A DNA stretch of 64,000 nucleotides from Xestospongia bergquistia (lineage: Eukaryota; Porifera; Demospongiae; Haplosclerida; Petrosiidae), in NCBI GenBank assembly GCA_963965975.1, contig OZ014411.1, positions 64,501 to 128,500 on the forward strand, read 5' to 3'. Shown here piece after piece: positions 2,411-24,527 of the stretch. The position numbers were made by a program, and so were the translations under genes. Positions within the stretch are counted from its first letter, which is position 1. Each line of letters starts with the position of its first letter. The notes beneath the pieces are model-generated. The model was not told the origin of the DNA. It made no database searches and saw only the letters and a list, made by a program, of their open reading frames with translations.

Positions 2411-2479
2411 TCAAACAAATAGCTTTCAACACTTGACACTATGAAAATTTAATATAATTAAATCTTGTTCTAAAAGAGG

Positions 2480-2717: not shown

Positions 2718-2784
<67 letters not shown>

Positions 2785-2808
2785 GAGATAGATAGATATA
2801 GATAGATT

Positions 2809-2865
<57 letters not shown>

Positions 2866-3504: not shown

Positions 3505-4049
3505 GCTTAACAAATTTCTTACTCAGAAAGAGGTTGTAATATATGGACCGTCAAAAAATATTGACACCCCTCTGACCATTAAAACACCAATGGTATGTCA
3601 GGGGAGGGGTGTCTTTGCCACTGAAGATATTCCTTCCAATACATACCTCTGTGAATACAGAGGTGATGTAATTTTTGATAAGCAAATTTTACGTGAAAGG
3701 GAAGAAGAGTACAAGAAAGACAATGAAGGGTGTTTCATTTTTGAAACAACAACAAGTGATGGTACCTTCATAGCCATTGATGCAACCAGGAAAATGACGT
3801 CAATTGCACGGTAGGTCAATCATTCAATCAATAATTTTGAAATCATGAAATATAGTTTAATCAATCATTCGTCATCATCCCAAAACATTAATAGCCGATT
3901 TCTTCTACCAGTACTAATCAGAGGTAAATGGAGGATGGGCCTAATATCAATGAAACCAATAAAGAAGGGGGAGGAGGTTCTCTATGACTATGGGGTTCGG
4001 GATTCAGAAATCCCATGGTTGAAAAGTCGTACAACCTCAAAAACTAAAG
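3505..4049 (+). CDS. SET domain (KMT5A/SET8-like) of SET-YR element A
   Basis: Two exons, 3505-3810 and 3857-4049, split by a 46-bp GT-AG intron, encode a complete SET domain. Visible motifs in order: GRGVFA (SET start), CEYRGD, IDATR, RLINHS formed across the splice, then IKKGEEVLYDYG and the final PWLK. The order and the DYG-x-R...PWLK ending match KMT5A/SET8, the histone H4 Lys-20 monomethyltransferase, which also lacks a post-SET cysteine motif. S-adenosylmethionine binding (GRG, NHS) and the catalytic Tyr (DYG) look intact. Upstream, the frame stays open from the splice acceptor at 3504. The donor at 4050 leads into a long linker and then to a zinc finger and recombinase in the same orientation, so this is one domain of a multi-exon element gene and not a free host methyltransferase. 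Product specificity is inferred. Confidence 0.85.
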
Positions 4050-4135
4050 GTAAATGAAACATATTTGTGCACTTTTAATGTATACAAAAATGAAACAGCT
4101 GTCTTCCTGCAAATTCACCTTCTATCACCTCAAGT

Positions 4136-5371
4136 ACAGTTCTTCCTGTTCCTACTGCTACAACCTTGCACAACATGGAGGATTCTCCAACTTTTCCAGA
4201 TGCTCCATCTCTTTCAGATTATCCATTCCTCCTGATCTCATAGATCCTCAATCTGTTACAGGTTCTCAGTCTCTTACAATGCTTCATCTATACTATCTCT
4301 TCCAGATTGTTCATCTCATTTTGTATCTCCGTGTCCTTTAGATGAGACATGTGATCCATCTCATTCAGATCATTCATCCATTCCAGATCCTGCACTTTCA
4401 TCTATAATATCTCTTCCAGATGTTCCATCTCTTTTTAGTTCTCAATGTCCTATAGATGAGACAAGTGGTCCATCTCTATCAGAACATCCATCCTTTCAAG
4501 ATCATACAGATCATCAATATCTTACAAATCCAAGAGGTTCTCAATCTCTTCCAGATGCTTAGTCTTTACTATCTATTCCAGATTGTACATCCCTTTTACC
4601 TTCTTCATCTCCTTTATTTTTAGATGAGGCAGGTGGTCCATCTCATTCAGAAAATGATTGTGAGTTAAATATATTCATGTCAGTGATTTTATGTACGATC
4701 TTATGCATTGTGTTGTGTGTGCAAAAGGGTAATGCAAGGTAGTCATTTTTGTAAATGTTGCCTAAAAAATGCCATCCCTTTTGTTGAGATACTCATGGAA
4801 ATGAGGGATATGGATGTAATGTTACATGCTTTAATTGCATGGGGGTAAGTATTATTTATATATATATATATATTTCTTTTAATTGATTTATATATTCAGA
4901 AAGACCTTCTGCTGGTGGAAGATGCTAGCAAACCCTCAGCTAAAGTCATGGTATCTTCAGGTGAGTTTCCTCTGTGATATATAATTGCTTATTTGGTTTC
5001 ATAGATTCAGAAGATGACATACGTATCATCACAAAGAAGTCAAAAATGTCATTATCATCTGGTAGGTCTTTTACTTTGAACAATGTTCATGAGGACAACA
5101 TTTCATCAGTAAATAAAACCAGGAAGCGCCTCTTATCCTCATGTAAGTCTTTTAGTTTGAATCATGCTTATTTGTTCTCAGGTTCTGAAGAGGAGCTAAT
5201 AAAATCTTCCAGACCACCTAAAGGTACCTCTCTTTTGTAGAAAATATATTATATTCAAATTTCAACACTAGGTTACAAATCAATCATAGAAAGTAAAGTT
5301 AGAATCCTAATGACTACATATAAAACATTTCTTTTAGTCAGTGACTCAGACTCAGCTAACCCAAGAAAAGG
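4136..5371 (+). CDS. Ser/Pro-rich and acidic linker exons of SET-YR element A
   Basis: Between the SET and finger exons lies low-complexity coding-like sequence. About 4335-4660 reads as repeats of a motif like IDETSGPSLSEHPS (three variants), rich in Ser, Pro, Asp and His. It is followed by a string of tiny exons, each with GT/AG borders and acidic content: DLLLVEDASKPSAKVMVSS (about 4902-4960), DSEDDIRIITKKSKMSLSSG (about 5006-5061), DNISSVNKTRKRLLSS, GSEEELIKSSRPPKG and VSDSDSANPRKG. Some stops occur in the longer stretch, so the copy may be damaged or further introns may exist. The linker is likely disordered. Exon limits are approximate. Confidence 0.5.
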
Positions 5372-5442
5372 CAAGATATCTTGAAAATGTTAATCATTGT
5401 TCCCATTACTGTAGCAAAGACATACAATCGTGAAAAATACAG

Positions 5443-5590
5443 ATAATTATTTGCCCACTTAGTGGTGAGTGTGGCAACACACATCCTCTCAGAAAATTGA
5501 GCAACCATTTCGTATGTAAACATCCAAATGTGTCTAAAGAAGATCGTGCAAAATACCTCAAAGTAACTAGACATCAAGCAAAAACTTGAC
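5443..5590 (+). CDS. C2H2-like finger exon of SET-YR element A
   Basis: After the acceptor at 5442 the frame reads CPLSGEC, then 11 residues, then H-FVCK-H-P, giving C-x5-C-x11-H-x4-H with the signature LSNH. Copies B (14124) and G (46678) share the same arrangement with C-x4-C. The finger precedes the recombinase in all three, so it probably binds DNA near the recombination site, or a partner protein. The basic tail (KYLKVTRHQAK) ends in a stop near 5588 with no clean donor seen, so the exact splice is uncertain. Confidence 0.65.
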
Positions 5591-5608
5591 TTTCCTTGTT
5601 GTCAATAG

Positions 5609-6398
5609 TCAGCAAAAAAATTCATCCAGCTTTGAGAAACAGGCAACAAAGAGAGGAAGCTGGCCCATCACAGTCAACCATAGAGATTTCTTTTAAAAAA
5701 TCCATGACCAAACCACCAGAGGTTGATATATCAACCTTTGGCAAACGAAAAGGATACACTTATCATTATAACGAATTCTCCTTAGCAAACAAGGAGTTGC
5801 AAGATTTCTCTAACTTTTTACAGACACCAGATGGTGGTGGTAGGGGCCCAGATGTTGCAAAAGAGGTGAGGTTATTTTCTTAACAGCATTTTTATTTAAA
5901 GCACAGATTGTTACTGATGTGTCCAAATATCTATATTTTTCTGTGCCGACAACGATTGACCTCAGCTCCTTGCTAAACAAGAAACTGATTTTAAGATATA
6001 TTGACAGGCTACAAGTAAGTCAATAAATATACAATTCATGATTATACGTTATATTTTCAGAAGACTTTGTTGGAGTCAGAGGTCAATTGACAAAATTAGA
6101 GAGACTAGACCATGGACTAGATTACTTGATGGAGCTTCCAGATCCTCCACATAATGAAATTGCTGGAATGAAAAACAAGCTACAGAAATGGAGGAAAGTT
6201 TTGAGACGAAAAGTGGCAGGGGAAAGGGAGGCAAGACTTGAGAAGGATGTAGAGGCTGCATACACATTTGACAGCCTTCACAAGTTTTTAAATTGCAAAG
6301 AGCTATGGCATCTGGCAAAAGAGACCTGTAAAAAAGCCATAGAGGGCACTCAATCAAGTAAAGATAGTGATGACCTGGCCACATTTTTATTTGCACAA
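5609..6398 (+). CDS. YR core-binding (N-terminal) domain of SET-YR element A
   Basis: Three exons, 5609-5865, 5907-6014 and 6061-6398, joined by introns of 41-46 bp. The first contains FLQTPDGGGRGPDVAKE, which is conserved in copy G (LTTPDGGGR, about 47020) and in looser form in copy B (FDGGSRPTKEVKQI, about 14574). The helical stretch that follows (YLYFSVPTTIDLSSLLNKK, GQLTKLERLDHGLDYL) corresponds to the SAM-like arm that clamps DNA in tyrosine recombinases. It ends with ATFLFAQ just before the catalytic exon. Confidence 0.7.
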
Positions 6399-6445
6399 GT
6401 AATGAACAAATAACTACATTCTCACTTATCACAAATATATCCTAG

Positions 6446-6938
6446 CTCATGTACACAAACACTCAGCGCCCAGGAGCTATCTTACACATGCGCGTGGATG
6501 AGTTCAAAAATAGGGTGGATATTGAAGGGAGAGTCATCGTTAGGGTAGAAAATGATAAGACTGGGACTGCATATGGTGCAGCAAAGATTGTGCTCACCAA
6601 AGAGCTTGAGAAACTGGTCGAAACATATCTCATGCATTTAAGGCCTCAGACTGAAGCTGAGGAGCTCTTCATAACATCTCAAGAAGCTAAATACAATGAC
6701 TATGTACAAAAAATAAAAAGCTTGACAAAAAGGTACAATCTGGATGTGCCAATGACAGCAACAACAGCCAGAAAACTAGTAGCAACTAAAGCACATGAGA
6801 TATTGACTAGCACAGACACAAGATGCCTAGCTAAACACATGGGCCATGCATTAGAAACAAGTGACCGTTACTATCAAGCAATAGATACTGCAAAATCAAC
6901 GGTCAAAGTGCACACAATGATACAATCATTAATTTCAG
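6446..6938 (+). CDS. Tyrosine recombinase catalytic domain of SET-YR element A
   Basis: The exon begins at an acceptor (CCTAG) and ends at a donor (CAG/GTAAAG). Catalytic landmarks: QRPGAI (Arg I), DKTGTAYG (Lys of the beta hairpin), TTARKLVATKA (Arg II box with Thr where classical enzymes have His), HMGHALETSDRYYQ (His and the nucleophilic Tyr). The same spacing is seen in copies B, C1 and C2. Tyrosine recombinases cut and join DNA through a 3'-phosphotyrosine and usually act at short inverted sites. The copy reads open throughout this exon, so the enzyme core could be intact. The downstream gene continues to the C-terminal motif at 7262-7491. Confidence 0.85.
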
Positions 6939-7249
6939 GTAAAGACATACAGTAAAATGTTTTTTATTAATTATTTATTACAACCTTTTCAAAACCTCAA
7001 CAAGGTGACAATGGTTTGTTCTTCAGGTTGGATATTATCCCTCTATACTATTTCAGATTCAGCCATGCTGCATTCAACCCCAGGAACAATGACATCAATT
7101 CCTAATGAAGAGAAACCAATGCCAATTCAAGCAACAAATTCAAGTATATCTAGATCATCAAGTTATCATTTTTTTTATTGTCCTAAAAGGTACTGTTGAT
7201 CCCTCAACTACTTTAGATAGTAAAAGTAAGCAAAACAATGATCATTAAA

Positions 7250-7491
7250 CATTTAATGCCAAATTCATAGCTCAACAAAGAATCTTTTATAATGAAGAAG
7301 AAGTCAAAATTATCAAGGAATACTTCAAGGCATTCATATCAATGAGTGAGGTCAGGAAACCACCAATCTCCGTCTGCAAGGAGTTTTGTCTCAAACATAA
7401 ATTAACAACTCATGGAGATAAGCCAATAATCATTCAGGCTCGCAAAATACAGCATAAAGTTAGAAATATTATAATCATGTCCTCAAAGTAA
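7250..7491 (+). CDS. C-terminal SANT-like motif of SET-YR element A
   Basis: The final exon reads IFYNEEEVKIIKEYFKAFI, then PPISVCKEFCLKHKL, then ARKIQHKVRNI before a TAA at 7489-7491. Copies B, C1, C2 and D share the pattern E-x3-I-x3-F-x3-I ... PS/PL-x2-C-x2-F ... K-x-I/L-Q-D/H-K-V/L. The first part (R-Y/F-T/S-x-E-E/S) resembles a Myb/SANT helix. I infer a DNA-binding tail specific to this element class. Between 6939 and 7250 only small exon candidates are visible. Confidence 0.65.
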
Positions 7492-7720
7492 GCTGCCTCA
7501 GATGTGTATAATAATTAATTGTGAATAGGTAATCCATATATCAATGACATCATATATTCAAATGTACTACCGTTATTTACTACTCTCATCTATTTTAAAT
7601 ATGTAATATTGAATTTGTAATTACTTTAAAAGTACAGGACAAACTTTGGAATATTATAATCATGGCCTCAAAGTAAGCTGCCTGAGATGTGTATAATCAT
7701 TATTTGTGAATAGGTGGTCT
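7461..7720. repeat. Direct duplication at the 3' end of gene A
   Basis: The 3' end of the last exon and its flank (from about 7469, ATTATAATCATG, through TGAATAGGT near 7530) recur at about 7650-7715 with few differences. Replication slippage or a partial second copy would explain it. It is followed to about 8000 by AATAAT/AATGAT-rich simple sequence without genes. Confidence 0.7.
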
Positions 7721-8084
7721 ATCTTTGTCATTATCTACTCAATATAACTACTGTTATTTACTACTCTCATTTATTTTCATTACTTCACCCCCTTTATATG
7801 CCATAGATGGTATGTTAAGTAAATGATGATACTAAAATATAAATATTAGTAATACCAATGAAATTAATAATAATGCATAATAATAATTATATCAATGATA
7901 CCAATAAAATTAATAATAATGATAAAAATAAAATTAATAATTTACACTAACAATTACATTATCATCATCAATAATTAAAATAAAAATTGATAGTAAATAA
8001 TTCATACTAATGATGGTTCGAGACCCAAATATCGACTTTTCAGGACCAGTTTCGAGAACCATGTATACTTCAGATGAAGCACAG

Positions 8085-8232
8085 CTCTCAGAACGGACAA
8101 GGCCACAACAGCATCAACAAAGGCCACAGGGACACAATTTTCCAATTTTTCCAAAGGACACACGAAGGACACAAAAATCAGAACGCAGAGCCACAAAGGC
8201 CACAATTAGGGCTTCCAGGACACAATCAGATA
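8085..8232. repeat. Heptamer array (GGCCACA / GGACACA) 3' of SET-YR element A
   Basis: At least seven heptamers in one orientation within 150 bp: AGGCCACAA, AGGCCACAGGGACACAA, AAGGACACACGAAGGACACAA and CCACAAAGGCCACAAT. The spelling (CACA) is that of the 1-2.4 kb satellite and differs from the CATA versions near the other copies. I infer the 3' terminal region of element A. Confidence 0.65.
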
Positions 8233-9404
8233 GCTAAACGATATTGACTTTATTATTATTTTTACGGATGGAGAAGTCAATCAGGGATTACTTCAGGTAG
8301 ATGCAAGTGTATCCTTATTGGTTATTTGTTTGAGCAGTTTGGCCAGTGATGACAGACAAGATCACAGTGATTATGAAAGTACGTTAATATCACTATTAAT
8401 TCATTGCAAATATATTCTTTTACAGTAGTACAAGACCTGCAAGAGTGAGAACATGGTATGTTAACTGATATAGTAGTTTTTCATACATTCTATTTCAGAG
8501 AGACATTATGGGATGGAATTAGAAAGAGAGTCAGAAAGAGAGATCGAAACTTGTAAATAATCAACAAATTAAAATGAACTAAAATCATTAATTGCAGCCA
8601 CTATAGAGAGAGAGGAAGAACAAGAGTTAGGTAAGTATCTTAATCTATGAAAATCGTTAATTGCAACCATTATAGATTTAGAGGAAGAACAAGAGTTAGG
8701 GTTACTTCTGTATTTGCATTTGACAATAGTGATGCCTAAAATTTTAGATTTACTAACAAAAATAAGCATTGTACTTGAAAAATCCATTGAGTATACTATT
8801 ATTGACATTTACTTCAACGATTGTCATGTAGTTAAGGTTTCAACTAATTTCTGTTTTAACTTTAGCATATTAGGAAAAACATTATTCCTCTTTTAGAATT
8901 ATATCAAATTTTGTTATTTAGAAATCCTCTTCAAAGATTTAAAAGTAACACTTATTAATTTATTAATTCATTTTTTATTATTAATTTGTGGTCTTTTTGA
9001 ATGTTCTTCAAATGTTTGAAAGTAACATTTATTAGTTAACATTTATTTCATTTTTTTACATATACTTAATTTTGAATTATATTAGTTTGGTTTGCTTGAG
9101 TAACTGGAATCATAGTTGTATTGCAGAATTGAAAGGCTCTCTATATAGACAAATGTTTGACTGTATTATGTAATCTTTCACCTATCATGATTGTTTCAAA
9201 AAAACAATTCCATTTCTTGTTAATGTTTTTATTTTTCTTATGAGCACTTAAATACATTCCTTGGATCAATTCCCAGAGTGAATCCATTTAATTGTAATAA
9301 TCTTTTTAATGCAAATCCTTAATTTTGGCGGGTTTGTCCGGGACATGAAGTTCTCAAAGATATCTGACTCTGAGTTCATTTCTGGCTGAATTGCCTCATT
9401 TAAA
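8233..9404. other. Gene-poor AT-rich spacer with a small tandem duplication
   Basis: No protein family is recognised. At 8587-8640 and 8655-8705 a short segment encoding ATIEREEEQELG-like residues followed by a GT donor is duplicated in tandem. The remainder is AT-rich with no coding signal. Confidence 0.5.
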
Positions 9405-9690
9405 CCCTCTTGTCTTCTAGTTGGGAGGTCTTTCAGGGTTACTGCAACCAGTTTACTGGTTGCAATGCCAATCTGTACCCTGTACAGGCTTCAGATTGTT
9501 GTGGTAATTCGTGTACTGTGATGCCCTCTTACACTCTCTGGCTTTTAATAGTCTTTCAGAGTGAACGCAACTATTTTATTGTGGTTGTAGAGGTTGTCAA
9601 CAGTGTCCCTTCATGCCCTCTGATGAATGCCCATTTGTCCTTCAGGGCAATTGCAGTCTTTACGATTGTAAGGGACATTCAGAGCAGATC
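9405..9690. repeat. Array of inverted repeats of unrelated spelling
   Basis: Three or four related blocks begin with TTTCAGRGT or TTCAGGGC and contain short palindromes: arms TGCAACCAGT and ACTGGTTGCA around 2 bp (about 9442-9463), CTGTAC and GTACAG around 3 bp (about 9473-9487), a weaker CAAC...GTTG pair near 9570, and GCAATTGC near 9649. The organisation mirrors the heptamer arrays next to SET-YR copies but with a different stem. The 104-residue open frame across it looks incidental. Confidence 0.5.
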
Positions 9691-10760: not shown

Positions 10761-10832
10761 AATATGGCCCTCGATTTCTCAAAACAGGGCCATAAAGGCC
10801 ATATTTGGAGCAAAAGGGCCATAAATGGTGTG
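10748..10832. repeat. GGCCATA palindrome array, E-type 3' end, copy 1
   Basis: A perfect palindrome with 10-bp arms GAGGGCCATA and TATGGCCCTC around one A (about 10749-10769), then GGGCCATAAAGGCCATA and AAGGGCCATAAATGG. The matching array in copy 2 lies at 26228-26315. Confidence 0.75.
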
Positions 10833-11024
10833 GTGTGGTGGTAAAAGAATTGTTGATAAAAAAACACTTATCCCTCAATTTATCTCATATACCATGTTAA
10901 ATTGCTTTCAACCATTTACATTTCAATAGGTGTAACAGTGTCAAAAAATAAAATCATGGAGGCCAACATGGAGGATAAAAGTGAAATACATTCTTAGGTT
11001 TCCCAAGAAATAATACTATTTCAT

Positions 11025-11217
11025 AGAGCTTGGAAGAAGAAGATACACCGAAGAAGACACCAAGAAAATCTTGAACTTCTTCAAAAATTACATACAAAAA
11101 TCAGAAACCAAGCCACCATTGGGTATCTGCAGGCAATTTCTTGGGAGTAACCAATTGTCATCAACAAGGACTCCCAAACAAATACAGGACAAGGTGTATA
11201 ACCTACAAAAGAAATAA
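11025..11217 (+). pseudogene. Type D SET-YR C-terminal exon
   Basis: Open frame RRRYTEEDTKKILNFFKNYI, then KPPLGICRQFLGSNQL, then TPKQIQDKVYNLQKK and a TAA at 11215-11217. This is the cleanest instance of the SANT-like C-terminal motif in the window. No SET or recombinase precedes it; it sits between the E-type remnant and its own GGCCATA array, as expected if a second element joined the first and lost its 5' part. From 11218 to 11650 there is no gene. Confidence 0.65.
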
Positions 11218-11654
11218 AAATAAGTTTAACATTTAGTTATCATCAATAACTATATAATAAACAGTAGTCATTTATCCAAATACTATAATCATTAATTGTA
11301 TTGTACAGTGTCATCACATCAAGCCAACAATTATATTAAAAATTACAGTTCTAACATCTACCCAAACTTTAAAAAGAAACAATAAACAAAACTATAAATT
11401 GTGAGGCCCCATATTGTAAAAATTGATCTAAAGCTGTAAAAATGGATAAAACAAAGGAGGCCACATTTTTAAAAAATTAGATTAATGTCTTGACATAAAG
11501 CAAATCATGGGTAAAAGAGAGTTTTTGGGCAATAAAGCACAATAATTTAATTGCAAGTCACATAAACAGTGAGAAAGGGAAACATTAAGGCTACATTTTT
11601 CAAAATAGGCAACAGGCAATAAAGACAAGGGGAGGGAGGGCCATGTCATAGCCA

Positions 11655-11799
11655 CATTTTTCAAAAAGCCGGCCCTGGGCCATTAGGACCGTAAAGGCCA
11701 TAAATTTTTGCCTCAGGACGTAAATGTGGCCCTAAAACACCCAAAAGGACATAAAAAAGGCCATACCCAAAGGGCTAAACCCTAAACCCTAAACCCTAA
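11655..11799. repeat. GGCCATA-type array ending in (TAAACCC)3
   Basis: GGGCCATTAGGACCGTAAAGGCCATAA... and further GGAC(G/A)TAA, GTGGCCCT, AGGACATAA and AGGCCATA heptamers lead into three exact TAAACCC units at 11776-11796. Right after them begins the 5' region of element B, shared with 26334 onward. The junction therefore sits at TAAACCC. Confidence 0.75.
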
Positions 11800-12524
11800 G
11801 CCATACCCAGTGGTACCATTTTTGGATTCGAGAGCCGCTTCGTTACATTGCAGGGTGGTTTTGGATGTGAGGGACATACAGGGACATATTCAGTTTTTCC
11901 TGTTATTGACGATAACTAAGAAGCGAAAGCTTGGATTCATGTGGTACCACTGGGGTTTGCTACCCTGACTTGTAAGGTTTCCAACAATATGCATAAGTTG
12001 GCACTTTTGTAGTGTACCTTCTATGGGCTAGTAACGGAGTTTGACCGCCATTTTCTTGCTTCAGGTATGACTTTTCCATAATTAAAAATCACCAAAAATT
12101 TTGTCGTAACATCAGCTATCTGTTAGTGTGCTTTGTTATTGATTAGGACCCCTTTTTAATATATTTTTAAAATTGTTGGAAAAAGTAGGTAATATTTGGG
12201 CTGTGGGGTTTCACGTTCTACTCTAGGGATCTGCATGGGAGTAGTGGGGTTTGAAAGCACAAAGGAGGGGCTATCTACTGATATACAGAAACATCTATAT
12301 ATATATATATATAAAGCCCTTATTTTTTTTTAATTTTAAAAACGTTTTGAGTTTAAAAATTTTTTAAAAATTTATTTTTCATAACTTTGAAGGCCTGTAA
12401 CTATCGATTGGGAGGGGCTAACACACCCCTTCGTCACATTTTTAATATTTTTATTAACTTTTGTCTTCTTTAGTTTTGGAGTTATTAGCCTTAAGGTGGA
12501 ATTCATTAACTTATGAATATATTC
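11800..12524 (+). promoter_or_regulatory. Conserved 5' noncoding region of SET-YR element B
   Basis: About 725 bp, highly similar to 26334-27078. It starts with CCATACCCAGTGGTACCA and includes two GGGACATA heptamers at 11871 and 11881, the spelling used in the 3' array of B (16145-16440) and not that of the preceding E/D array. A TA microsatellite lies near 12295-12313. Because it precedes the start exon in both copies, it probably holds the element's 5' end and promoter; no specific promoter motif is claimed. Confidence 0.55.
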
Positions 12525-12688
12525 ATGAGTGGACACTCCCCTGGGAAATGTGTGACTTCTGATGACGTAACTTTCGATGCTTGTCATCCTGACAAAAGAC
12601 CTGAAGACCTATGTGGGAGGGCCGGTCAAGTACATAGGGTTTCGACAAAAGTCTATCCTGTCATATTATACAACTACACAAGAACATT
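12525..12688 (+). CDS. Start exon of the SET-YR element B gene
   Basis: ATG at 12525 opens MSGHSPGKCVTSDDVTFDACH followed by PDKRPEDLCGRAGQVHR and STKVYPVI, up to a GTAAGT donor at 12689. The second copy at 27079 keeps this reading almost residue for residue, supporting a real coding exon. The family of this N-terminus is unknown; several Cys and His residues (KC, ACH, LC, VH) could bind metal. Confidence 0.55.
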
Positions 12689-12734
12689 GTAAGTAGTCTC
12701 TCTAACATGTACATTTTGATTTTTTTAACAAATT

Positions 12735-13113
12735 ACAGCTTCTCTCCCGTCTCCACCGATAGACTGTAAGTGCAGTATTTTGACACTTTCTAATAGCCAA
12801 TATAGAACTCACAAGTTTTGAAGAAGGTATGCAATGTTTACTTCTATGTACTAACTCACATGGTCCAGGACCAGACATCCAAGAAATCAGCTCAGATGAA
12901 TTAGGTTTCCATTTACCAACTTGCATTTAACTCAAGACATACAGGTTACTCTGCTGACTCTGAGACATCATCTGATGAGTCACTGCCAGTTGAAGAAACA
13001 AGTAAGATCAAAGAAATAGTTTCTTTAACAGAGTATAATGCATCTAAACCTTCAACCTACAATACTTTCTAGCATCAGACGACAACCTGAGAAGATCCAC
13101 TAGAGTCAGGTTA
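12735..13113 (+). CDS. Acidic linker exons of SET-YR element B
   Basis: Small pieces between GT/AG borders: a short Ser/Pro piece near 12737-12768, GPGPDIQEISSDEL near 12863-12905, YSADSETSSDESLPVEETS near 12949-13003, and SDDNLRRSTRVR near 13076-13110. Composition and position match the acidic micro-exons of element A. Exon choices are provisional. Confidence 0.4.
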
Positions 13114-13281
13114 CCAATTTAATTGCACTTCATAATATGAATGCATGATTAGGCACATAATATCACCCAAGGAATATGTTATTACATACCTGGACAGAAA
13201 CATTGAGGCGAACCTGGAGATAAGATTTCTCCCCGCATGAGATATGTGCATGGTAGTAATTTCATGAATTTGTTTCTTTAG

Positions 13282-13776
13282 GAAGATCCGTCTTTGCAAA
13301 GGAGCCAATCAAGTCAGGAAATTATATAACAGAGTACAGGACCGTGAGTGTCTTAAAAGAGAGACAGTACAGAGTTTGAGAGAGAGAATACCTCCAAAAT
13401 GAGGAAAAGACAGCGGCCATCGAGGTCAAAATCGACGGTCACCGTCACTTTTTAGATGCCACCAGACGATTGGAGCAATATTAATCACTCGATTAATCCA
13501 AACATACAACCGTTCCCTACTGTGTTTGTACACGGAAAATATAGATTTGGGTTCTTGGCCATGCCAGACGATTGGAGCAATATGGCGCCTATATTAATCA
13601 CTCGATTAATCCAAACATACAACCGTTCCCTACTGTGTTTGTGTGCAGAAAATATAGATTTGGGTAATTGCCCATGCGTGACATAAGTCCCGGGGAGGAA
13701 TTGACCTGGGATTACAATACTAGAGATCCCAAATGGCCTTGGTTGAGCGGTCTTGATCCTCCCAAGGCCAAAAAAG
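13282..13776 (+). CDS. SET domain (KMT5A-like) of SET-YR element B, with internal duplication
   Basis: Exons 13282-13343 (GRSVFAKEPIKSGNYITEYR) and about 13374-13776. The latter encodes IEVKIDGHRHFLDATRRLEQ, INHSINPNIQPFPTVFVHGK, YRFGFLAM, RDISPGEELTWDYNTRDPKW and PWL. These match the IDATR, NHS, GEEL-x2-DY and PWL landmarks of KMT5A. About 105 bp (CCAGACGATTGGAGCAATAT ... GATTTGGGT) is repeated in tandem at about 13457-13557 and 13563-13665, duplicating the NHS-containing segment and disrupting the frame. The original domain therefore looks inactivated in this copy by a recent slippage event. Confidence 0.75.
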
Positions 13777-14123
13777 GTAAGTGTATATTTGTAAGTGGAT
13801 GCTTTTCATTTTTCCCAATACAACAAACAGCATCCCGATCCCCCCCAATGAGTAAGTGTACAGTATTCTTAACTGGCACTTTCATAACTTCCTTTATCCT
13901 CTCTCTCACCTCCACCGTCTCCATCCCGTAAGTCTAGAGTATTGTAATTTGACAGTTTTGCAACATGCTTTAGGATCTCACTCTTTACCGAAAGCTATGT
14001 CAAGTAAGTCTAGCATGTTTTTGTTTGGCACTTTTCCCACTTCCATTAGGAACAACTCCAAAAGTCAAGACATCTAAGAGTAAGGTTCATTAGATGGTCA
14101 ACAATAACATCATGCCATTACAG
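13777..14123 (+). other. Intron-rich linker between SET and finger, element B
   Basis: No long frame. Several GTAAGT-like donors recur (13777, 13853, 13928, 14003) with short Thr/Ser-rich pieces between them, a pattern like the micro-exons of element A. Assignments are weak. Confidence 0.3.
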
Positions 14124-14374
14124 CCAACTACGAGACATATAGAAAACCTTATTTCTGCCCTGTGGACGGCTGCAGAAATACCAAGGCAATTAAGAAATTG
14201 TCCAACCACCTTGTAGCCATCCACAGGGTCTCTGACGTTACAGCAAGGAAAGAGCTGCTCCACAAGGCAAAAGTCACTGGGCCACAGCCCCATGGCAGAC
14301 ACCAAATTACCATAACACAAGCTCTCTCCACAGCGTCGTCGTCATCTGCAACGATGCATCTCGTAATCCCACAA
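14124..14374 (+). CDS. C2H2-like finger exon of SET-YR element B
   Basis: Acceptor at 14121-14123, donor GTAAGT at 14375. The exon reads ANYETYRKPYFCPVDGCRN, then KKLSNHLVAIHRVSD, giving C-x4-C-x11-H-x4-H with the LSNH signature, then a basic stretch (ARKELLHKAKV) and a Ser/Thr tail. It lines up with the finger of copies A and G, at the same place before the recombinase. Confidence 0.75.
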
Positions 14375-14485
14375 GTAAGTACCTAACACACCACATTATA
14401 CAAGTGTACACTAGAGTACTCACTACAGAACACAACAGCATACTGCATGCTACAGCGCACTAGATATCTTTCCAATAAAACGTAG

Positions 14486-15547
14486 GGTCCAAAAAAAGAG
14501 GTTCAACACGGCATTTTGCTAAATATAGTGAAACCCATCCAGAGCTTGCAAAGTTCTACTCCAATCTTGTCTGTTTTGATGGGGGGTCCAGGCCCACCAA
14601 AGAAGTAAAGCAAATTGTTGCAGATATATCTAAAGTATTAGCCTTTCGCCAGCAGGGACCACTCCGGTGGTCCCTGCTTACTGACATCAACCATATCAAG
14701 GCGTATGTAGACACTCTGCTTACCAATGACATCGGGCCCGACGGAGTGTCTACTAAAATTGACCACATCATCATGGGCCTTAACTATCTCTCTCGACTAA
14801 AGTATATAACGTACCCTCAAAGTACCATCTCTCGGTTGAAGGAGTGACAGACCTCCTTCACACGGGCCAAGTTCATAATGGACCATGCCAGGGCGCTCAA
14901 AACACTGGCCTCTGACACACTAGATACTGCAAGAGCTTTTTTTGAAAGCGAACACCTAAATCACTTTCTGTCACATATGGAAACCTCACTGTCTCCCAGT
15001 TCGAGTGAAACAGACGTAAACCATCTTGTCACAGTTCTCTTCTGCTCCCCGACATACTCAAACCTCCAGCGTCCGGGTGCCGTCATCAATATGACGATGC
15101 CCGAGGCAACAGCTGCAACACCTAGAGAAGATGGCCATTTCATCTACAGTTCAGCAGACCATAAAACAGGGAATGTGTATGGTCCAGCCCACATGGTCTT
15201 GAACCCCCAGACTGCCAATCTTTTTTCCATATGTCTCTCAGACGTAAGACCAACAATCATCACATCATCTGATAAAGCCCTGGTCACGTACAATGGTTCA
15301 CCATTGACCCATTACAGGCATTTCATCAGATCACTCTGCACAAAGTTCCACCTACAGATGCTACCTAATCTCACCACCATGCGAAAGGCAGGAGCAATTG
15401 CTGCTGTGAGTGACTTACCACCATCCGAAATGGAGGTGGTAAGTCACCACATGTCCCATTCGAGCTCCACATCGGAGCGGTTCTATAGAGAAAGAAATTG
15501 AACCACTGAGGCGCAGCAGGCATTCAAGGCAATTTCTGCCATAACAA
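14486..15547 (+). CDS. Tyrosine recombinase of SET-YR element B
   Basis: One exon from the acceptor at 14485 to a GTGAGG donor at 15548. The N-terminal half (about 14500-14870) has FYSNLVCFDGGSRP and KIDHIIMGLNYLSRLKYI, matching the core-binding part of A. One in-frame stop follows (RLKE then TGA at about 14846). The frame then runs open from 14878 to 15501 with NLQRPGAVINM (Arg I), DHKTGNVYGPAHMVL (Lys), TTMRKAGAIAAVS (Arg II), and SHHMSHSSSTSERFYRER (His and the Tyr nucleophile). A stop (TGA, 15499-15501) follows the Tyr. The catalytic residues are present but the gene is interrupted at least twice, so this copy is probably inactive though young. Confidence 0.8.
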
Positions 15548-15594
15548 GTGAGGTCTTGATGCATCTACATTGAATTAAAGTCTTATGTTTTTAG

Positions 15595-15802
15595 CTAACC
15601 CAAGACCAAAGCCACAACTGGCTAGAGGCTTTAGCCTTGAAGTCCTCGACTTGATGAGGAGAAGCTTAAAACGTTTATAAACACCCCTAAGACGGCTCCA
15701 CTCTCAGTTTGCCGACAATTTCTCAAAAAACACAACATCACTGACAGGACAGCTAAACAGCTGCAAGATAAACTGAAGTCTATGCATAAAAGTAAGAACT
15801 AG
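15595..15802 (+). CDS. C-terminal SANT-like exon of SET-YR element B
   Basis: Begins at an acceptor with ANPRPKPQLARGFSLEVLDLM, then shifts frame near 15655 and continues as EKLKTFINTPKTAPLSVCRQF, LKKHNI and AKQLQDKLKSMHKSKN with a TAG at 15800-15802. The motif (F-I, PLSVCRQFL, KQLQDKL) is that of the family C-terminus. One frameshift is present. Confidence 0.65.
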
Positions 15803-15984
15803 GACAGGTCTTTTTTTGTCTGTATATTTTCATTTATCATTATATACTTTAATCACAATTTATCAAACGTATATTGTCTGTATACCATCACTTATATAAT
15901 CCAATCTTGTAAATATATATTTTAATCACCATTTATCATTATATACTTTTATTTATCATTTTATATTTTAATCACCATTTATCA

Positions 15985-16024
<40 letters not shown>
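15803..16024. repeat. AT-rich spacer and TA microsatellite
   Basis: Short repeats of the type TTTATCATTATATACTTT, then a TA run at about 15987-16024. No gene. Confidence 0.7.
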
Positions 16025-16027
<3 letters not shown>

Positions 16028-16463
16028 TTATAAAGTCTAAGTACATGAGACCAAGTCTAGGTACATGAGACCAAGTGTAAGTACATGATACTAGTATAAG
16101 TACATGAGACAACAACACTGTCACTATAATTACCCATAAAAATAAAGGGACATATGTCCTGAGGGACATCAGAGCAAGTATAAGTACATGAGACTAAGTA
16201 TAAGTACATGACACTAAGTATATATAAGTACATGAGACTAAATAAAGGGATATATGTCCCTGAGGGACATAACTTTGAAGGCTCACAACACCAAACAACA
16301 ACAACAAACAACTCCAAATGTACAAGTATGATAAACGACAAAGTTCAAAATTTTGTGAGGGACATATGTCCCTCACAAAAATTTTCAGAGACATAATATA
16401 TCCCTCCAAACACCAAAGGGACATATCCAGAGACATAAAATCAGGCGTAAACCTTAAACCCTA
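16025..16463. repeat. 3' array of element B: ~20-bp tandem repeat plus GGGACATA palindromes
   Basis: Eight or so units like AGTATAAGTACATGAGACT fill 16033-16245, broken by GGGACATATGTCCTGAGGGACAT-type palindromes at about 16148, 16246 and 16359 and by single heptamers at 16368 and 16420. The array ends TAAACCTTAAACCC at about 16448-16461. The heptamer spelling equals that in the 5' region of B. Confidence 0.75.
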
Positions 16464-16694
16464 TTGTGAGTCAAGTATATGAACAACTTATGCCAAATAT
16501 GCAGAGGTAGGATCTAGACAGAGTCTCCTAGAAAGTTCTCAAGGAAATGACATACACATGAACTGTGAAGTCAAAAGTATTGTGGGTCAAGTGCATGAGT
16601 TTTTGACTTTGCTGGAACTTCCCGCAATGGACATTTCAATTTTGTGTAAAAGAAGAGACGGTTGGTGACTACTCACACAGTTCCAAAAGCTGAG
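16464..16694. other. Flank between element B and the Crypton-like gene
   Basis: No gene. A piece resembling 29600-29700 begins before the ATG at 16695, so it is probably the 5' untranslated part of the Crypton-like element. Confidence 0.4.
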
Positions 16695-17916: not shown

Positions 17917-18143
17917 TGTGATATCCTCTCAACTCTTTTCAACTCTTTAACACTTAGGTTTTGTTTGTAATTATGTTAGTTAGTATCTCTACTGTAAATT
18001 GGTGCTAATTGTGTTAATAGTTTTGTCACTTAGCTCTTTTGTTTATTGTTATTGATTTTGTATAAATAGGATTTAGTTTTTACTTGTACTAGAGTTTTCC
18101 ATTCTATCCATTAAAATTATTTCAATTTAACTTAAATACCACA
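17917..18143 (+). repeat. 5' LTR of the Gypsy element
   Basis: Starts TGTGATATCC, ends ATACCACA, with TG...CA ends. TGTATAAATAGG near 18060 is a plausible TATA element. Confidence 0.93.
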
Positions 18144-21100
18144 ATTGGCGACGAGAGTGGTGGATTTTCGCTAATATCATGGCAACTTCACAGTTCGGAA
18201 CTCTCAAAGAATTTAACTCAAATGAGGGATCAATCACCTCATATCTGGAACGTGTTGACCTTTACTTTACTGCAAACTCTGTTCCAGGGGACAAGCAAGT
18301 TCCCATTCTTCTGACCTGTATTGGTACATCTACGTATACCCTTCTCAGTGATCTTCTTGCTCCATCTCTGCCCAGCACCAAGTCACTGGCCGAGATCTCA
18401 GATGTTCTACGGAAGCATTTTGAACCAAAGAGAGCCATCATAGCTGAACGGTATCACTTTCACAAACGTAATCAAGCTGTGGGGGAATCTATTGCTGATT
18501 ATGACGCTGCTCTATGCAAGCTAGCGACTAACTGTAAATTCGGGGACTACCTAGAGGATGCTCTTCGTGACCGATTCGTATGTGGGCTGAGTAACGAAGC
18601 GATACAACGATGGTTACTTTCCGAGCCTGACCTAACTCTCACCAAAGCGATGGAACTAGCGCAAGGTATGGAAGCCGCTGAACGTAACTCCAAATCCCTT
18701 AAAGGTACCGAGTTCGCCGTTAGAAAACTTCGTGGCAAACCTCCGCCTCGACCTAAGACGCAACAACCGTGTTACCGATGTGGGAAGTCAAATCACTCAC
18801 CTATGGATTGTAAATTCAAGGACGTTGAATGTCATTCATGTGGAAAGAAAGGCCATATTGCCCCAGTTTGCCGAACTAAACATCAGAAACGGACCAACGC
18901 AGCCACTGGACGAATTAAGAAACCTTTCACAGCCAATGTTGTGAATGAGGACAGCATCGACGCTACCGACTCCGATAGTGATGAACACTATTTATTTAAG
19001 CTGCGTGAATCATCCTCCCATCCAATGGAAGTAACCGTGACCGTCGAAGACAAACCACTTGTTATGGAGGTAGACACCAGCGCCGCCGTATCTATCATCT
19101 CAGAAGCAACTCGAACGAAATTATTTCCACATCTGAAATTACATAAGTCCAAGGTTGTCCTGAAGACATACACGGACGAACCTATACAAGTTAAGGGACA
19201 AATTAATGTACTTTCCTGTCCCATTTGCAATTAAAGGTGCTGTAGGAAAGGAACTGGATCGACTGGAACAACAAGGAATAATCAGGAAGGTCGACCACAG
19301 TGACTGGGCTGCACCTATTGTTGTAGTGCCTAAGAAAGATGGAAGGTTCCGCCTGTGTGGTGACTACAAGGTCACAATAAACCAAGCTCTCACAGTAGAC
19401 CAGTACCCACTTCCCAAGCCTGAAGATTTGTTTGCTACATTAGCAAATGGAAAACATTTTACCAAGTTAGATCTTTCACAAGCCTACTTACAGCTAGCAC
19501 TGGCGGAAGATTCTATGAAGTATGTCACAATAAACACACACCAAGGTCTATACCAATTCACTAGATTGCCATTTGGAATTGCATCAGCACCTGCTATTTT
19601 TCAGAGGCTCATGGATAAGATCCTACACGGACTGCCAGGAGTCATTTGTTATATTGATGACATATTAATAACAGGAAAAGATGATGAAGAACATCTTCGA
19701 CATTTAGCAGCTGTGCTAAACAGATTAGAAGAGCACAATTTCAGACTTAAGAAGGACAAATGTCACTTCCTTATACCCTCTGTCGAGTATCTTGGATATC
19801 AAATCGATCAAGAAGGAATTCATGCAGTACCTAGCAAAGTGGAAGCCATCACCAACGCTCCACCACCTACTAACATCCAAGAACTTCGGTCATTTCTTGG
19901 CTTACTCAATTACTACGGAAAATTTATTCGAAATCTCTCAAGTATTTTACACCCACTCAACGGTCTGCTTCGTGCAAATCAAAAGTGGAAATGGACTGAT
20001 GAATGCACAAAAGCATTTAAAGAAGCCAAAAGACAATTAGTTTCTGCCAATGTATTGACCCATTACAACCCCACTCTACCCATCAATCTTGCAGCTGATG
20101 CCTCTGCCTATGGAATAGGAGCTGTAATTTCTCATGTCCTGCCAGATGGATCAGAAAAACCAATTTCCTTTGCCTCACGCACACTAACTAGTGCAGAGAA
20201 AAACTATTCACAGCTTGAAAAAGAAGCTCTCTCTTTGATTTTTGGAGTTCGTAAATTCCACCAATATCTTTACGGAAGAAAATTTACCCTCATAACTGAC
20301 CACAAACCCCTCACTGCAATTTTTGGCTCAAAGAAAGGAATTCCTTCTTTAGCTGCTGCTCGTTTACAGCGATGGGGACTTCTTTTGTCAGGTTATGATT
20401 ACAATATTTGTTTTAAACCTACAGAAAACCATAGCAATGCTGATGGACTGTCAAGACTTCCACTACATGACCAAGAAGCAGTCGGTGAAACGAAAACAGT
20501 TACCATCTTCAATCTTTCTCAAATTCAAGCCTTACCAGTCACCTGTAATCAAGTTCAGGTTGCCACTAGGCGTGATCCCATTCTTAGCAAGATTGTTGAT
20601 TATGTGAGGAGGGGATGGCCAAAGCAAGTACCAGATAACATTCGACCATATCAATCAAAACAAGAAGAAATTACTATTGAAAGTGGATGCCTACTATGGG
20701 GTATTCGTGTCATTATTCCAAAAAGAGTCACTAGAATGAAAGCTATAGCTAGAAGCTACATGTGGTGGTTGGGAATTGACAAGGATATTGAGAATTTAGC
20801 AAAGTCATGTCTTCCTTGCCTTGAAAACAAATCACAACCAGCTGCTGCACCTTTACACCCGTGGATCTGGCCTACCACACCATGGAAAAGAATTCACATC
20901 GATTTTGCAGGTCCTTTCCTGGACAAAATGTTCCTGGTAGTGGTGGATGCGCACTCTAAATGGCCAGAAGTAATTCAAATGCCTTCAACAACCTCTTTCA
21001 AAACTATTGAAGCACTCAGGAATCTCTTTGCAAAGTACGGTCTCCCAGAACAATTAGTATCAGACAATGGACCACAGTTCACCTCTGAAGAATTTGCCGA

Positions 21101-21798
21101 GTTTATGAAAGTTAATGGAATTAAGCATATTCGTAGTGCTCCATATCACCCCTCTACAAACGGGTTGGCAGAAAGGTTTGTTCAAACTTTCAAGAGAGCC
21201 ATGAAGATTAGTGCTCAAGATGAACCAAATCTCAGTACTCGATTATCACAGTTCTTACTTGGATATCGATCAACACCACATGCTACCACTAATGTTTCAC
21301 CTGGAGAATTATTTCTACAACGGAAGCTTCGTACGTGTTTTGATCTATTGAAACCTAACATTGAATCTGTCGTAAACACAAAACAGAGCAACCAGAAAAC
21401 TCATCATGATAAGCATGTCAAGCAGCGACACTTTTCAAAAGGGCAACTTGTGATGGTCAAGGACTTTATTCTCAAGAAATGGATACCTGGAAAAATAGTG
21501 AACACTACTGGACCACTGTCTTATTCAATTCAGATTGAAAATGGAAGGATAATTCGCCGTCATGTTGATCACATCAAATCTCGTTCGTTGATTACTGTCA
21601 AATCTCCTTCAGAACTTTATACCAATGATACTATGGAGTTTGATTTGTTTCCAACACCAAGTACTGATCATTTTGAACCTACACCTACACCAGTCGTTCA
21701 ACAAGAACCTGTTCGAGAACGTCACTACCCATTAAGGTCAAGTCGACATCCTCCTTCACGATATCAACCAGGACTGTCGCACTTAACAGGGGAGGAAA

Positions 21799-22025
21799 TG
21801 TGATATCCTCTCAACTCTTTTCAACTCTTTAACACTTAGGTTTTGTTTGTAATTATGTTAGTTAGTATCTCTACTGTAAATTGGTGCTAATTGTGTTAAT
21901 AGTTTTGTCACTTAGCTCTTTTGTTTATTGTTATTGATTTTGTATAAATAGGATTTAGTTTTTACTTGTACTAGAGTTTTCCATTCTATCCCTTAAAATT
22001 ATTTCAATTTAACTTAAATACCACA
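21799..22025 (+). repeat. 3' LTR of the Gypsy element
   Basis: Same 227 bp as the 5' LTR apart from one base near the end (CTATCC then A or C). It is preceded by the purine tract AGGGGAGGAAA. Confidence 0.93.
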
Positions 22026-22332
22026 GAAGTGTCCCGAAGACGCGTACTACATGGAGATACTGAGAGATTACTGGCTCCGTCACAGAAAGAAAATTCCCAA
22101 CAGTTACGACAGTGACTTAGTTTTCCTGGTAAGTAACCAAGGATGGAACAAACATGGTAACACGAGTAATAGTTTTTAGCAACTGTTAACTCTTTTGTGT
22201 TCTATTTACAGAATGACAGTGGGCACCCTTATGATGAGACAACATGGAGCAAATACATCTATACAATATTCAACAGGTACAAGGGAGCACACGTGTCCAT
22301 ACACACCCTAAGGTCTGCTTTCATTACCTATG
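22026..22332 (+). mobile_element. Crypton-like tyrosine recombinase element, 3' part
   Basis: Continues the recombinase cut by the Gypsy insertion. Exon up to 22128: KCPEDAYYMEILRDYWLRHR, KIPNSYDSDLVFL; intron 22129-22211; exon from 22212: NDSGHPYDETTWSKYIYTIF, KGAHVSIHTLRSAFITYVKR. HTLRSAF is the H-x2-R box of tyrosine recombinases, here with the classical His that SET-YR copies lack. The domain stops near 22332, before the nucleophilic Tyr, where SET-YR C1 sequence starts. Its 3' end is therefore lost. Confidence 0.65.
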
Positions 22333-22680
22333 TGAAAAGGAAGAGAGGGAGATAAGTAACTTCTTTCAAGGCAAAACTCCATCTCTTCAGAATTGTAGGA
22401 ATTTTATTTGGAAATTTAAAATTACAAAAACACTAAAGCAAATCCAGGACAAAGTCCGGGGGATGCGACGCTCATAAATACATTTATCACCATGAAACAT
22501 TTCTTACTATACATTTATCACCATGAAACATCATACATTTATCACTATGAAACATTATTATTCAGTAATAACTATTCAACATCATACATTTATTACTATA
22601 CATTTATCACCATGAAACATCATACATTTATCTATTACTATACATAATTATTCTGTAATAACTAGAAAACAAACTCTGCA
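22333..22680 (+). repeat. Direct repeat, left copy (SET-YR C-terminal exon and 3' flank)
   Basis: Very similar to 23585-23880. Coding part about 22345-22475: REISNFFQGKTPSLQNCRNF, KFKITKTLKQIQDKVRGM, the family C-terminal motif. It is followed by CATTTATCACCATGAAACAT-type short tandem repeats. The two copies bracket the C1 recombinase piece. Confidence 0.75.
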
Positions 22681-22689
22681 AACTCTGCT

Positions 22690-22925
22690 CCAGCGGCTTC
22701 ATATCGCCACTAAACTCCCAACAATCATGGCAGTTAGAAAGCTGGGGCAACAGCCGTGGTTGCTGAAGGAGATGAAACCCAAACTGAGCAGCTAGCAGAG
22801 CATATGTCTCACAAAAAAGACACCTCAGTATTTTATTACTGAGCTAGGGCTCGAATTGATTCAGCTGTCACAATTCATAACAAAATTACTCAAGTCACTG
22901 ATAAGTATTATGATTTGTGATAGGT
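22690..22925 (+). pseudogene. Tyrosine recombinase fragment, SET-YR copy C1
   Basis: Carries the end of a catalytic domain: LPTIMAVRK (Arg II), and after a one-base frame change KAGATAVVAEGDETQTEQLA, EHMSHKKDTSVFYY (His, Tyr), then an in-frame stop and ARARIDSAVTIHNKITQVTD. The order and spacing equal those of A, B and C2. The 5' half (Arg I, Lys) is missing. Confidence 0.7.
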
Positions 22926-23029
22926 AATGTAAAATTGTTTAGCAACTGCTATTTCAACTGCCTCTTCAAGATGGAAACATCAAGGTAACTACCATGAGCT
23001 TCAGTAAAATTAGCTTCATTACAATTAAC

Positions 23030-23710
23030 TTATGAATGATAGACTCTTCAGACGAAGCTGGATGTCACAAGGCTATAAAGGGTTAGTACAGCTCATTCAT
23101 TAATTAAAAATATTTCACTTACGAATAGTTCTTCAATCAGACTCTGATTCAGAAGAAAATTACTGTAAGTTAAACTTCTGAAGAACAATTATACATTCCC
23201 TTTAGCTTTACGACCTAAAGGAGGTAAACCTAAAGGAGGTCGACCAAAGGTCGTTAAGGGTAAGTACTACTTACCTTGTTAATTCATTCAAATAATTAAC
23301 AGACACAACTTCTAAATCAAAAGAGTCAACACAAATGTCAACACAGTCAAGTATGCCAATCTATTAAGTATGGCAACTACTTAATTGAATATTTTTGATT
23401 ATAGCAAAAGACTCACTAAGAGTAGGACAAGGTATGTCAGGACAATATGTAAAAAATGTTTATTTAAATGTTTATTTCTTCAATAGGTGCAAGTGTATCA
23501 AAAGACACACCCAGTGCTCCTGCACGAGGTATGTCAGGACAAGTGAAAATGTTTATGTCTTAAATAGGATTCACAGAAAAGGGAGGGAGATAAGTAACTT
23601 CTTTCAAGGCAAAAATCCATCTCTTCAGAATTGTAGGAATTTTATTGGGAAATTTAAAATTACAAAAACACCAAAGCAAATCCAGGACAAAGTCCGGGGG
23701 ATGTGATGCT
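23030..23710 (+). CDS. C1 tail: acidic, basic and SANT-like exons
   Basis: A chain of micro-exons after the C1 recombinase piece: DSSDEAGCHKAIKG (about 23042), DSDSEENYC (about 23142), LRPKGGKPKGGRPKVVKG (about 23210-23260, an AT-hook-like basic run), DTTSKSKESTQMSTQSS (about 23301), AKDSLRVGQG (about 23403), GASVSKDTPSAPARG (about 23487), and the last exon GREISNFFQGKNPSLQNCRN...KQIQDKVRGM ending near 23703. The exon series shows how the linker between recombinase and SANT-like motif is built. Exon borders are approximate. Confidence 0.5.
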
Positions 23711-23885
23711 CATAAATACATTTATCACCATGAAACATCATACATTTATCACTATGAAACATCATTATTCAGTAATATCTATTCAACATCATACATTTAT
23801 TACTATACATTTATCACTGTGAAACATCATACATTTATCTATTACTATACATAATTATTCAGTAATAACTATTCAAAAATTTGCA
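23585..23885 (+). repeat. Direct repeat, right copy
   Basis: Repeats 22333-22680 with about 1.25 kb offset: same C-terminal motif, same CATTTATCA repeats. It is followed at once by another recombinase fragment (C2), so two element tails stand head to tail. Confidence 0.75.
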
Positions 23886-23912
23886 ACATTGGCCCCATGA
23901 TGTCCAGCTGTT

Positions 23913-24527
23913 ATGGCATTGGAAGGAATAGCCAAGGAAGCATTTTTCTTCTATATAAATAATATCAGAAAGAACATTCCCACATCATCAAGTGTCGATA
24001 ATGCCCTTGTTACCAGTAATGGTAAACCCATGATCCATTACTGGGATCACATAAAATTAATTACAGGAAAATATGGCTTCAAAGATTTTCCCACCCTAAC
24101 AGAAATACGTAAATGTGGAGCAACATCAGCAGTAATTCATCAAAATGAACAGAAGCTTGTAAAAATCTCAGAGCATATGAGCCATTCTAAGGCAACATCA
24201 TCACATTACTACAGAATGCACAGCCGCATGCAATCTGTGGTGTCTGCACATACTACAATTCAAACAATTACAAGTAAGCTAACACATTTCTCTTCTCAAT
24301 TTATATCATCTTTTCTAGGTAATGCATCAGATAAAGATAAATTAACAGCAGCAAAATGTTTCAGTGATGTTGAAACAAAACTCATTAAGGATCATTTCAA
24401 AGAAAATATTAACCAGAAAAAGTCTGTGTCATTATCACAATGTCACAACTTCATGCAAAAGTACAAACTATCTAAAATACCTAAGCAAATACAAGACAAA
24501 GTAAAGAACATAATAAAGTTCAATTAA
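23913..24527 (+). CDS. Recombinase C-terminal half and tail, SET-YR copy C2
   Basis: Open frame of 204 residues. It starts inside the catalytic domain (NALVTSNGKPMIHYWDHIKL matches ALVTYNGSPLTHYRHFIRSL of B), then TLTEIRKCGATSAVIHQ (Arg II), SEHMSHSKATSSHYYRMHSR (His, Tyr), an in-frame stretch that is probably an intron (24276-24319, GTAAGC...TTCTAG), and the C-terminal motif KCFSDVETKLIKDHFKENI, SLSQCHNFMQKYKL, PKQIQDKVKNI with a TAA at 24525-24527. Arg I and the Lys box are absent, so it is truncated at the 5' side but uncorrupted where present. The ATG at 23913 is probably not a true start. Confidence 0.75.
   Translation: MALEGIAKEAFFFYINNIRKNIPTSSSVDNALVTSNGKPMIHYWDHIKLITGKYGFKDFPTLTEIRKCGATSAVIHQNEQKLVKISEHMSHSKATSSHYYRMHSRMQSVVSAHTTIQTITSKLTHFSSQFISSFLGNASDKDKLTAAKCFSDVETKLIKDHFKENINQKKSVSLSQCHNFMQKYKLSKIPKQIQDKVKNIIKFN

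Follow-up and report, generated by a model that had tools for sequence, protein, structure and literature searches.

The window analysed here, a 64,000-nucleotide stretch of the sponge Xestospongia bergquistia (contig OZ014411.1, forward-strand positions 64,501 to 128,500; C1:64501-128500 of a genome of 146.46 Mb in 21 contigs), contains members of an element family that are very probably tyrosine recombinase (YR) DNA transposons, which integrate site-specifically into the telomere repeat at CTA and carry one gene for a SET domain, a C2H2-like finger, the YR and a C-terminal domain. The architecture, ends, target and joints of these elements were read from the sequence, as were the kept catalytic residues and the modelled fold of the recombinase. 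An original prediction made from the window's letters had proposed a mobile-element family; this part stands, but it overlooked the telomere-repeat target, the points where the elements begin and end, and the deletion derivatives found on several chromosome ends.

The order SET, finger, YR, tail was found on one strand in element A (Table 1) and again in element B, as had been predicted for both copies, though B is decayed and has stops in its SET and YR parts. Element A begins with TATACCTTCTGG, preceded by CCCTAAACCCT, and ends in ...ATCAGATAG at window 8233, after which CTAAACG follows; its near copy A' occupies C1:21816-32094. The two SET exons of A are separated by a 45-base GT..AG intron (window 3811-3855), and the further frames of A appeared by eye to be repeat frames. 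In the better-kept copy at C1:37.7 kb (37k), no frame is broken in SET, finger-YR or tail, and the short stretches separating these frames have GT..AG ends (by eye); the copy at C1:61.4 kb (61k) has a frame broken within SET, and a further copy lies at the right end of C1 (C1R). Acidic short exons upstream of SET were seen by eye in other copies too. Furthermore, 24 proteins were found as database relatives, two of which are recorded as single fused proteins: P0003 (665 aa, from a 6,079-base contig; SET with an expectation value, E, of 9.6e-18, finger and YR) and P0023 (747 aa, 9,580-base contig; SET E 6.3e-20, finger, YR and tail). These are the only 2 of the 24 with a Pfam SET, which passes the cut-off with its motifs in both; several of the other returned proteins begin inside the gene.

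We then compared the individual domains. The catalytic positions of the YR (QR, KT, RK, (S/G)H and the second Y of YY/FY) are kept in all six alignment rows, and H402 and Y411 are invariant among 11 rows; R, K, R, H and the nucleophile Y are the catalytic residues of tyrosine recombinases. A YR fold over the core-binding and catalytic domains was obtained in P0003 and P0023, the relatives that were modelled in place of copy A, and a SAM-like N-terminal part is present. The finger, of pattern C...C...KKLSNHL...H, stands before the YR in the rows that cover this region; no Pfam zinc finger scored above cut-off, the finger of B and that of P0003 giving only a sub-threshold match to Sina_ZnF. The tail, called SANT-like in the original prediction, is predicted to be helical in P0023 residues 690-740, with a predicted local distance difference test score of ~90. 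In the SET domain, the motif GRG is found in 5 of six rows (GRS in C13), and NHS and DY are found in 6/6. KMT5A/SETD8 (PDB 5teg and others) is the best PDB match for the joined SET domain of A (1.6e-14) and for that of P0023; unlike this enzyme, the present SET sits in a mobile element. The 37k SET matches ASH1L and SETD2 first, so that the earlier description "KMT5A-like" suits copy A and P0023 but not 37k.

SET and YR are linked across the genome. Counting C4:5113098 and C4:5113250 as one, there are 24 YR places, eight of which have a same-strand SET match within 3 kb upstream; given 93 SET matches listed in 146 Mb, this linkage is not chance. Seven of the 16 YR places without a nearby SET go back to a single deletion derivative, of whose YR 58 residues remain. 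The prediction had named a genome-wide lack of SET-YR linkage as grounds for abandoning it; the linkage seen here, together with the two predicted proteins, instead bears out a SET domain in a mobile-element family with a YR. Moreover, SET identities (33-60%) and YR identities (23-46%) co-vary among six copies or proteins (r = 0.96), a value that only the true pairing reaches among 720 permutations, as expected of parts inherited together. The ratio of nonsynonymous to synonymous substitution (dN/dS) of the YR was 0.30 between A and A' (42 changes) and 0.25 between B and the C13 copy.

The telomere repeat of the genome is TTTAGGG (C-strand CCCTAAA), and a contig end lies 64 kb away from the start of the window. 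We found TTTAGGG arrays at six of eight contig ends inspected (C1R, C13L, C5L, C8L, C15R and C2R); C4L showed no TTTAGGG array, and C1L, whose first 2500 bases read N, showed short stretches only. At the inner edge of the array at C13L (6776-8179), C1R and C15R, CCCTAAA passes into degenerate TTTAGGG within ~16 bases. TTTAGGG in an animal genome contrasts with TTAGGG, which is described as the repeat in Chordata and further major groups of animals (PMC10767889). One telomerase exon match in the genome (E 1.5e-5) suggests that a host telomerase is present, and three Wnt loci mark the host as an animal.

Element ends meet this repeat at a constant point. After the B-type 3' end AAGTCAGG comes CCTAAACCC at C13L, C2R, C15R, C8L, C8R and C5R, and the B-type 5' end reads CCCTAAACCCTA-TATACTTGACC at C5L, C8L, C15R and C2R; the 5' ends of three families come after CCCTAAACCCTA. 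The C1R element ends at the same point (TACGAGG-GCTAAACCC), as do the 37k, 61k, E and D elements. The 3' junction pattern AGGSCTAAACCCTAAA occurred at 22 places in the genome, against 0 for the reversed pattern as a control. Every one of these places is 52 kb or less from a contig end, and at 20 of them the 3' end points inward; where the upstream sequence was read (21 places, C5:10815 left out), it was an element end in 21/21. The 5' junction pattern occurred at 20 places (control, 0); on contigs of known length 15 of 19 lie near ends, 13 of these in the expected direction. Because the 3' pattern itself holds telomere letters, the 3' end was also searched alone for two families, E and 37k, counting exact matches only and leaving out decayed copies. 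The E 3' end was found at 17 places, followed by CTAAACCCTAAA (n=9), CTATATCCCTG (n=7) or CTAAACCCTG (n=1), and that of 37k at seven, followed by telomere repeat (n=6) or CTATATACCTGACC (n=1). All 24 exact 3' ends thus run into CTA, which is continued by telomere repeat in 16 and by another element's 5' end in eight. Of the 24 YR places, 15 are no further than 100 kb from a contig end, and in each of these the 3' end points inward. A palindrome, GGGACATATGTCCC, lies near both element ends (L016 17-30 and 6642-6655, and other copies) and recurs at a spacing of ~130 bases in the B-type derivative; it is possibly a binding site. At C10:6194061-6249505, an internal telomere-like site ~1.1 Mb inside C10, four copies of the 5' junction stand with telomere repeat.

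Where units follow each other head to tail, a single CTA serves both, and telomere repeat is absent from the joint. Such joints were seen once for the B type (C5R), seven times for the E type (C1, C2, C3 and C14) and once for the 37k type (C10), and about five 3.9-kb E units on C1 are 99.9-100% identical, a sign that they were amplified recently. Each of the three joint types has an 8-base spacer, (G/C)CTATAT(A/C), between 6-base inverted arms matching at 5/6 positions, a layout that resembles a YR core site. None of 20000 random triples matched so in the common frame, a figure to be read with the shared ancestry of the families, which are not three independent trials. From these data we infer a circle, its reaction, mobilisation in trans and a role of SET. 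The YR would bind the inverted arms of the joint in a circular form, and the circle would recombine with the CTA of the telomere repeat CCCTAAA, giving CCCTAAACCCTA followed by TAT... at the 5' side and ...GG followed by (G/C)CTAAACCC at the 3' side, the 3' end of the element then facing the centromere. If the circle recombined with the end of a resident element instead, head-to-tail tandems with one shared CTA would result, and internally deleted derivatives, either mobilised in trans or duplicated as chromosome ends exchange sequence, would come to fill those ends. For the SET domain, the most likely role would be at telomeric chromatin, where it could open or mark the target or else shield the element from silencing.

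Several observations weigh against this reading. The 3' junction of B reads CGTAAACC, with the core CGTA; the 3' end of A runs into CTAAACGATA (CTAAACG) rather than a telomere array, and the 5' junctions of A and A' read CCCT-TATACC, in which the A of CTA is missing. Among the 20 5' junctions, four lie 1.1 Mb inside C10 and one on C9, which is not among the contigs of known length; of the junctions near ends, two 3' and two 5' ones run the opposite way, and 9 of the 24 YR places sit at least 464 kb inside chromosomes. Because a few insertions could be multiplied by exchange from one chromosome end to another, the sites are not all independent, and the element families share ancestry. The observations come from genome sequence only, and a circle, a transcript or a polymorphic insertion is not among them. 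P0003 appears to read through two short introns and therefore looks like a mechanical prediction. Selection on the SET domain is suggested, at dN/dS values of 0.54 (14 changes) and 0.39 (19 changes, 8 gapped codons dropped) that rest on few changes; SET exon 1 has 0 silent and 6 replacement changes between A and A', and the tail has a dN/dS of 1.0 on 5 changes. Finally, P0007, P0013 and P0024 have finger, YR and tail with no SET match in Pfam; these may be partial gene predictions, or SET may be missing from part of the family. SET as a "standard part" of the elements, as first put, therefore holds insofar as it is a regular part linked with the YR, but these three relatives speak against it. 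Because of them we also lowered our confidence in a wider proposal, which we put forward only tentatively: that these are a separate superfamily of self-mobile, telomere-repeat-integrating YR transposons with a histone lysine methyltransferase as a regular part of the recombinase protein, whose SET prepares or marks telomeric chromatin and whose arrays and derivatives form part of chromosome ends where telomere repeats are also present.

Three other explanations, which are not mutually exclusive, were weighed. A domesticated subtelomeric SET-YR host gene family, spread solely by exchange between chromosome ends and not by its own recombinase, is improbable. It would fit the concentration of copies at chromosome ends, the equal remnant score of the B-type derivative at seven places on four chromosomes, and the near-identical 3.9-kb tandem units on C1, which could arise by unequal exchange. 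However, the same CTA point is used by families whose YRs are 25-43% alike (37k, C13/B, C1R and A), three families have one-CTA joints with inverted arms, and telomere repeats flank both sides of single units at C2R, C8L and C15R and, with junctions paired by position, at C3R, C4R and C5L.

The original prediction had likened the elements to Cryptons. Animal Crypton YRs match DUF3504 (PMC3212892), and this domain was not matched by P0001, P0002, P0003, P0005, P0007, P0013, P0023 or P0024 at E up to 1; of its 3 matches in the genome, 0 fall at the 24 YR places. An hhalign profile comparison with one genome DUF3504 frame gave a probability of 0.2%, a weak test with a single sequence on that side. 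On these grounds we rejected membership among animal-type Cryptons, and the label is not supported. A Crypton with extra domains, which would be compatible with the proposed integration, is slightly less probable still than a host gene family: the YR, the introns, the short core or direct repeat (CTA) common to both ends and the fact that no terminal inverted repeats were noticed agree with it, but, besides the DUF3504 results, which concern animal rather than fungal or oomycete Cryptons, the telomere YRs in print are said to be no close relatives of Cryptons (PMC10871703).

Least probable of the three are remnants of a large integrated DNA virus of nimavirus type rather than a small transposon, since, although nimaviral YRs with C2H2 and SAM-like domains integrate into telomere repeats (PMC10871703), elements bounded at both ends measure 8.3 kb (A), 8.5 kb (C1:32105-40604) and 10.3 kb (A'), and the frames of at least 180 aa in C1:30001-40000 are SET and YR only. 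The BFVD fold matches listed were mostly phage integrases, with a few eukaryotic-virus proteins and unnamed entries and no nimaviral protein named among them, and one peptide pattern run against IMG/VR gave no confirmed viral relative.

The remaining pieces of the window (Table 1) include partial copies, as predicted earlier, namely the three C1R-type fragments, the E-type element and copy D. A relative that is undisturbed at the site of the 5'-truncated E fragment reads GTAAACCCTAAACCATACCC. Element B ends in AAATCAGG at 16445, followed by CGTAAACCTTAAACCC, with CGTA as the core instead of CCTA. The 5' part of element A also holds a simple repeat with IYLSIYLS-like frames (window 2439-3029), and a Gypsy-like retrotransposon with a long open pol frame lies between copies B and D. 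Elsewhere in the genome, SET matches cluster by the dozen on C7 (3.43-3.95, 0.84-0.90 and 4.32-4.34 Mb) and C1 (1.67-1.75 Mb), many of them with several internal stops, as if split by introns. Membership of these clusters in the family is unsupported, the element SETs matching neither of two loci inspected (L045 and L046), and L001 and L002 were set aside as host SET genes, by eye NSD/ASH1-like and SUV39/EHMT-like. Five SET matches are clustered at C4:8235363-8264783, the inspected one with a short C1R-SET-like stretch, KGIGVFAAEFIP; none of the genome YR places falls there, and this is possibly a domesticated SET.

Table 1. Features of the window (window positions; LTR, long terminal repeat; ORF, open reading frame)
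Feature	Position	Strand	Remarks
Element A	1..8233	+	5' end 72 bases before the window (C1:64428); 91-96% identical to A'
5' tandem repeats of A	482..2019	+	periods ~142 and ~425 bases, non-coding; self-matches
SET exon 1 of A	3562..3810	+	GRGVFA ... IDATR; PF00856 E 2.3e-6
SET exon 2 of A	3856..4049	+	LINHS ... GEEVLYDY; PF00856 E 2.2e-7; exon end by eye
C2H2-like finger of A	5452..5523	+	C...C...LSNH...H; read by eye
YR of A	5590..6955	+	catalytic exon 6446-6955: QRP, DKT, RK, HMGH...YY
C-terminal tail of A	7249..7491	+	KIQHKV form of KQIQDKV
C1R-type fragment (5' short exons)	8242..8700	+	adjoins 3' end of A; 93% to C1R
E-type element, 5'-truncated	10832..11774	+	tail 11014-11217; 3' end ACCCAAAGGG at 11774, then CTAAACCCTAAACCC
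Reversed B-type 5' end	11793..12639	-	ends ...GGTCAAGTACATAGGG against B; 83.5% to C2R derivative
Element B, 5'-truncated, decayed	12643..16445	+	91% identical to copy at C13 left end (C13:3054-6656)
SET of B, decayed	~13281-13718	+	five stops within matched stretch, plus internal repeat
Finger of B	~14156-14227	+	part of element B
YR of B	14479-15501	+	stop at 14845-14847
Tail of B	~15600-15802	+	part of element B
Gypsy-like LTR retrotransposon, gag/pol frames	18131..21803	+	outside the element; ORFs by eye
C1R-type fragment (tail, 3' part)	22334..22664	+	87% to C1R
C1R-type fragment (after YR, tail)	22677..23806	+	92% to C1R
Copy D	23901..25071	+	YR C-terminus and tail 23901-24527; 3' end ACTGTAAGG at 25071, then CCTAAACCC
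Second reversed B-type 5' end	26324..27194	-	87.5%
B-type 5' fragment	27196-27393	+	94%

The elements offer a base-level view of how a eukaryotic YR may use the telomere repeat as an attachment site, in a model of integration that is open to direct in vitro testing, and they link an enzyme that modifies chromatin with a recombinase within a single predicted polypeptide. If SET aids integration at heterochromatic telomeres, it would give a handle on how mobile elements cope with chromatin, and the element arrays bear on the composition of animal chromosome ends.

The HarbingerS and MuDR families are built on DDE transposases, not on a YR. In oomycetes they too are DNA transposons with a SET methyltransferase (cited in PMC12730594). 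The telomere-specific non-LTR retrotransposons SART1 and TRAS1 also insert into telomere repeats, but by retrotransposition and with no recombinase. Cryptons are likewise eukaryotic DNA transposons with a YR, some groups having terminal direct repeats of a few bases (PMC3212892); they differ from the present elements, in which DUF3504 is unmatched, the telomere repeat is the target and SET is fused. Among the literature matches listed, which include little of the subscription journals and no Repbase Reports, we found no fused SET-YR element and no small telomere-repeat-specific YR transposon. The closest systems in print among these matches are the SET genes of HarbingerS and MuDR transposons and the telomere-integrating C2H2 YRs of endogenous nimaviruses, the latter known from Majanivirus, Pemonivirus and some Whispovirus (PMC10871703). 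The nimaviral YRs, likened here by the description of their domains and target and not by sequence comparison, share the C2H2 and SAM-like parts and insertion into the host telomere repeat (PMC10871703, PMC7016691). In contrast, the sponge elements are ~8-10 kb long with one recognised gene, to which SET and a C-terminal tail are added, and their target is TTTAGGG instead of (TAACC)n; and whereas the exact boundary of Nimav-1_LVa is stated to be undetermined (PMC7016691), their junctions and joints are read to the base.

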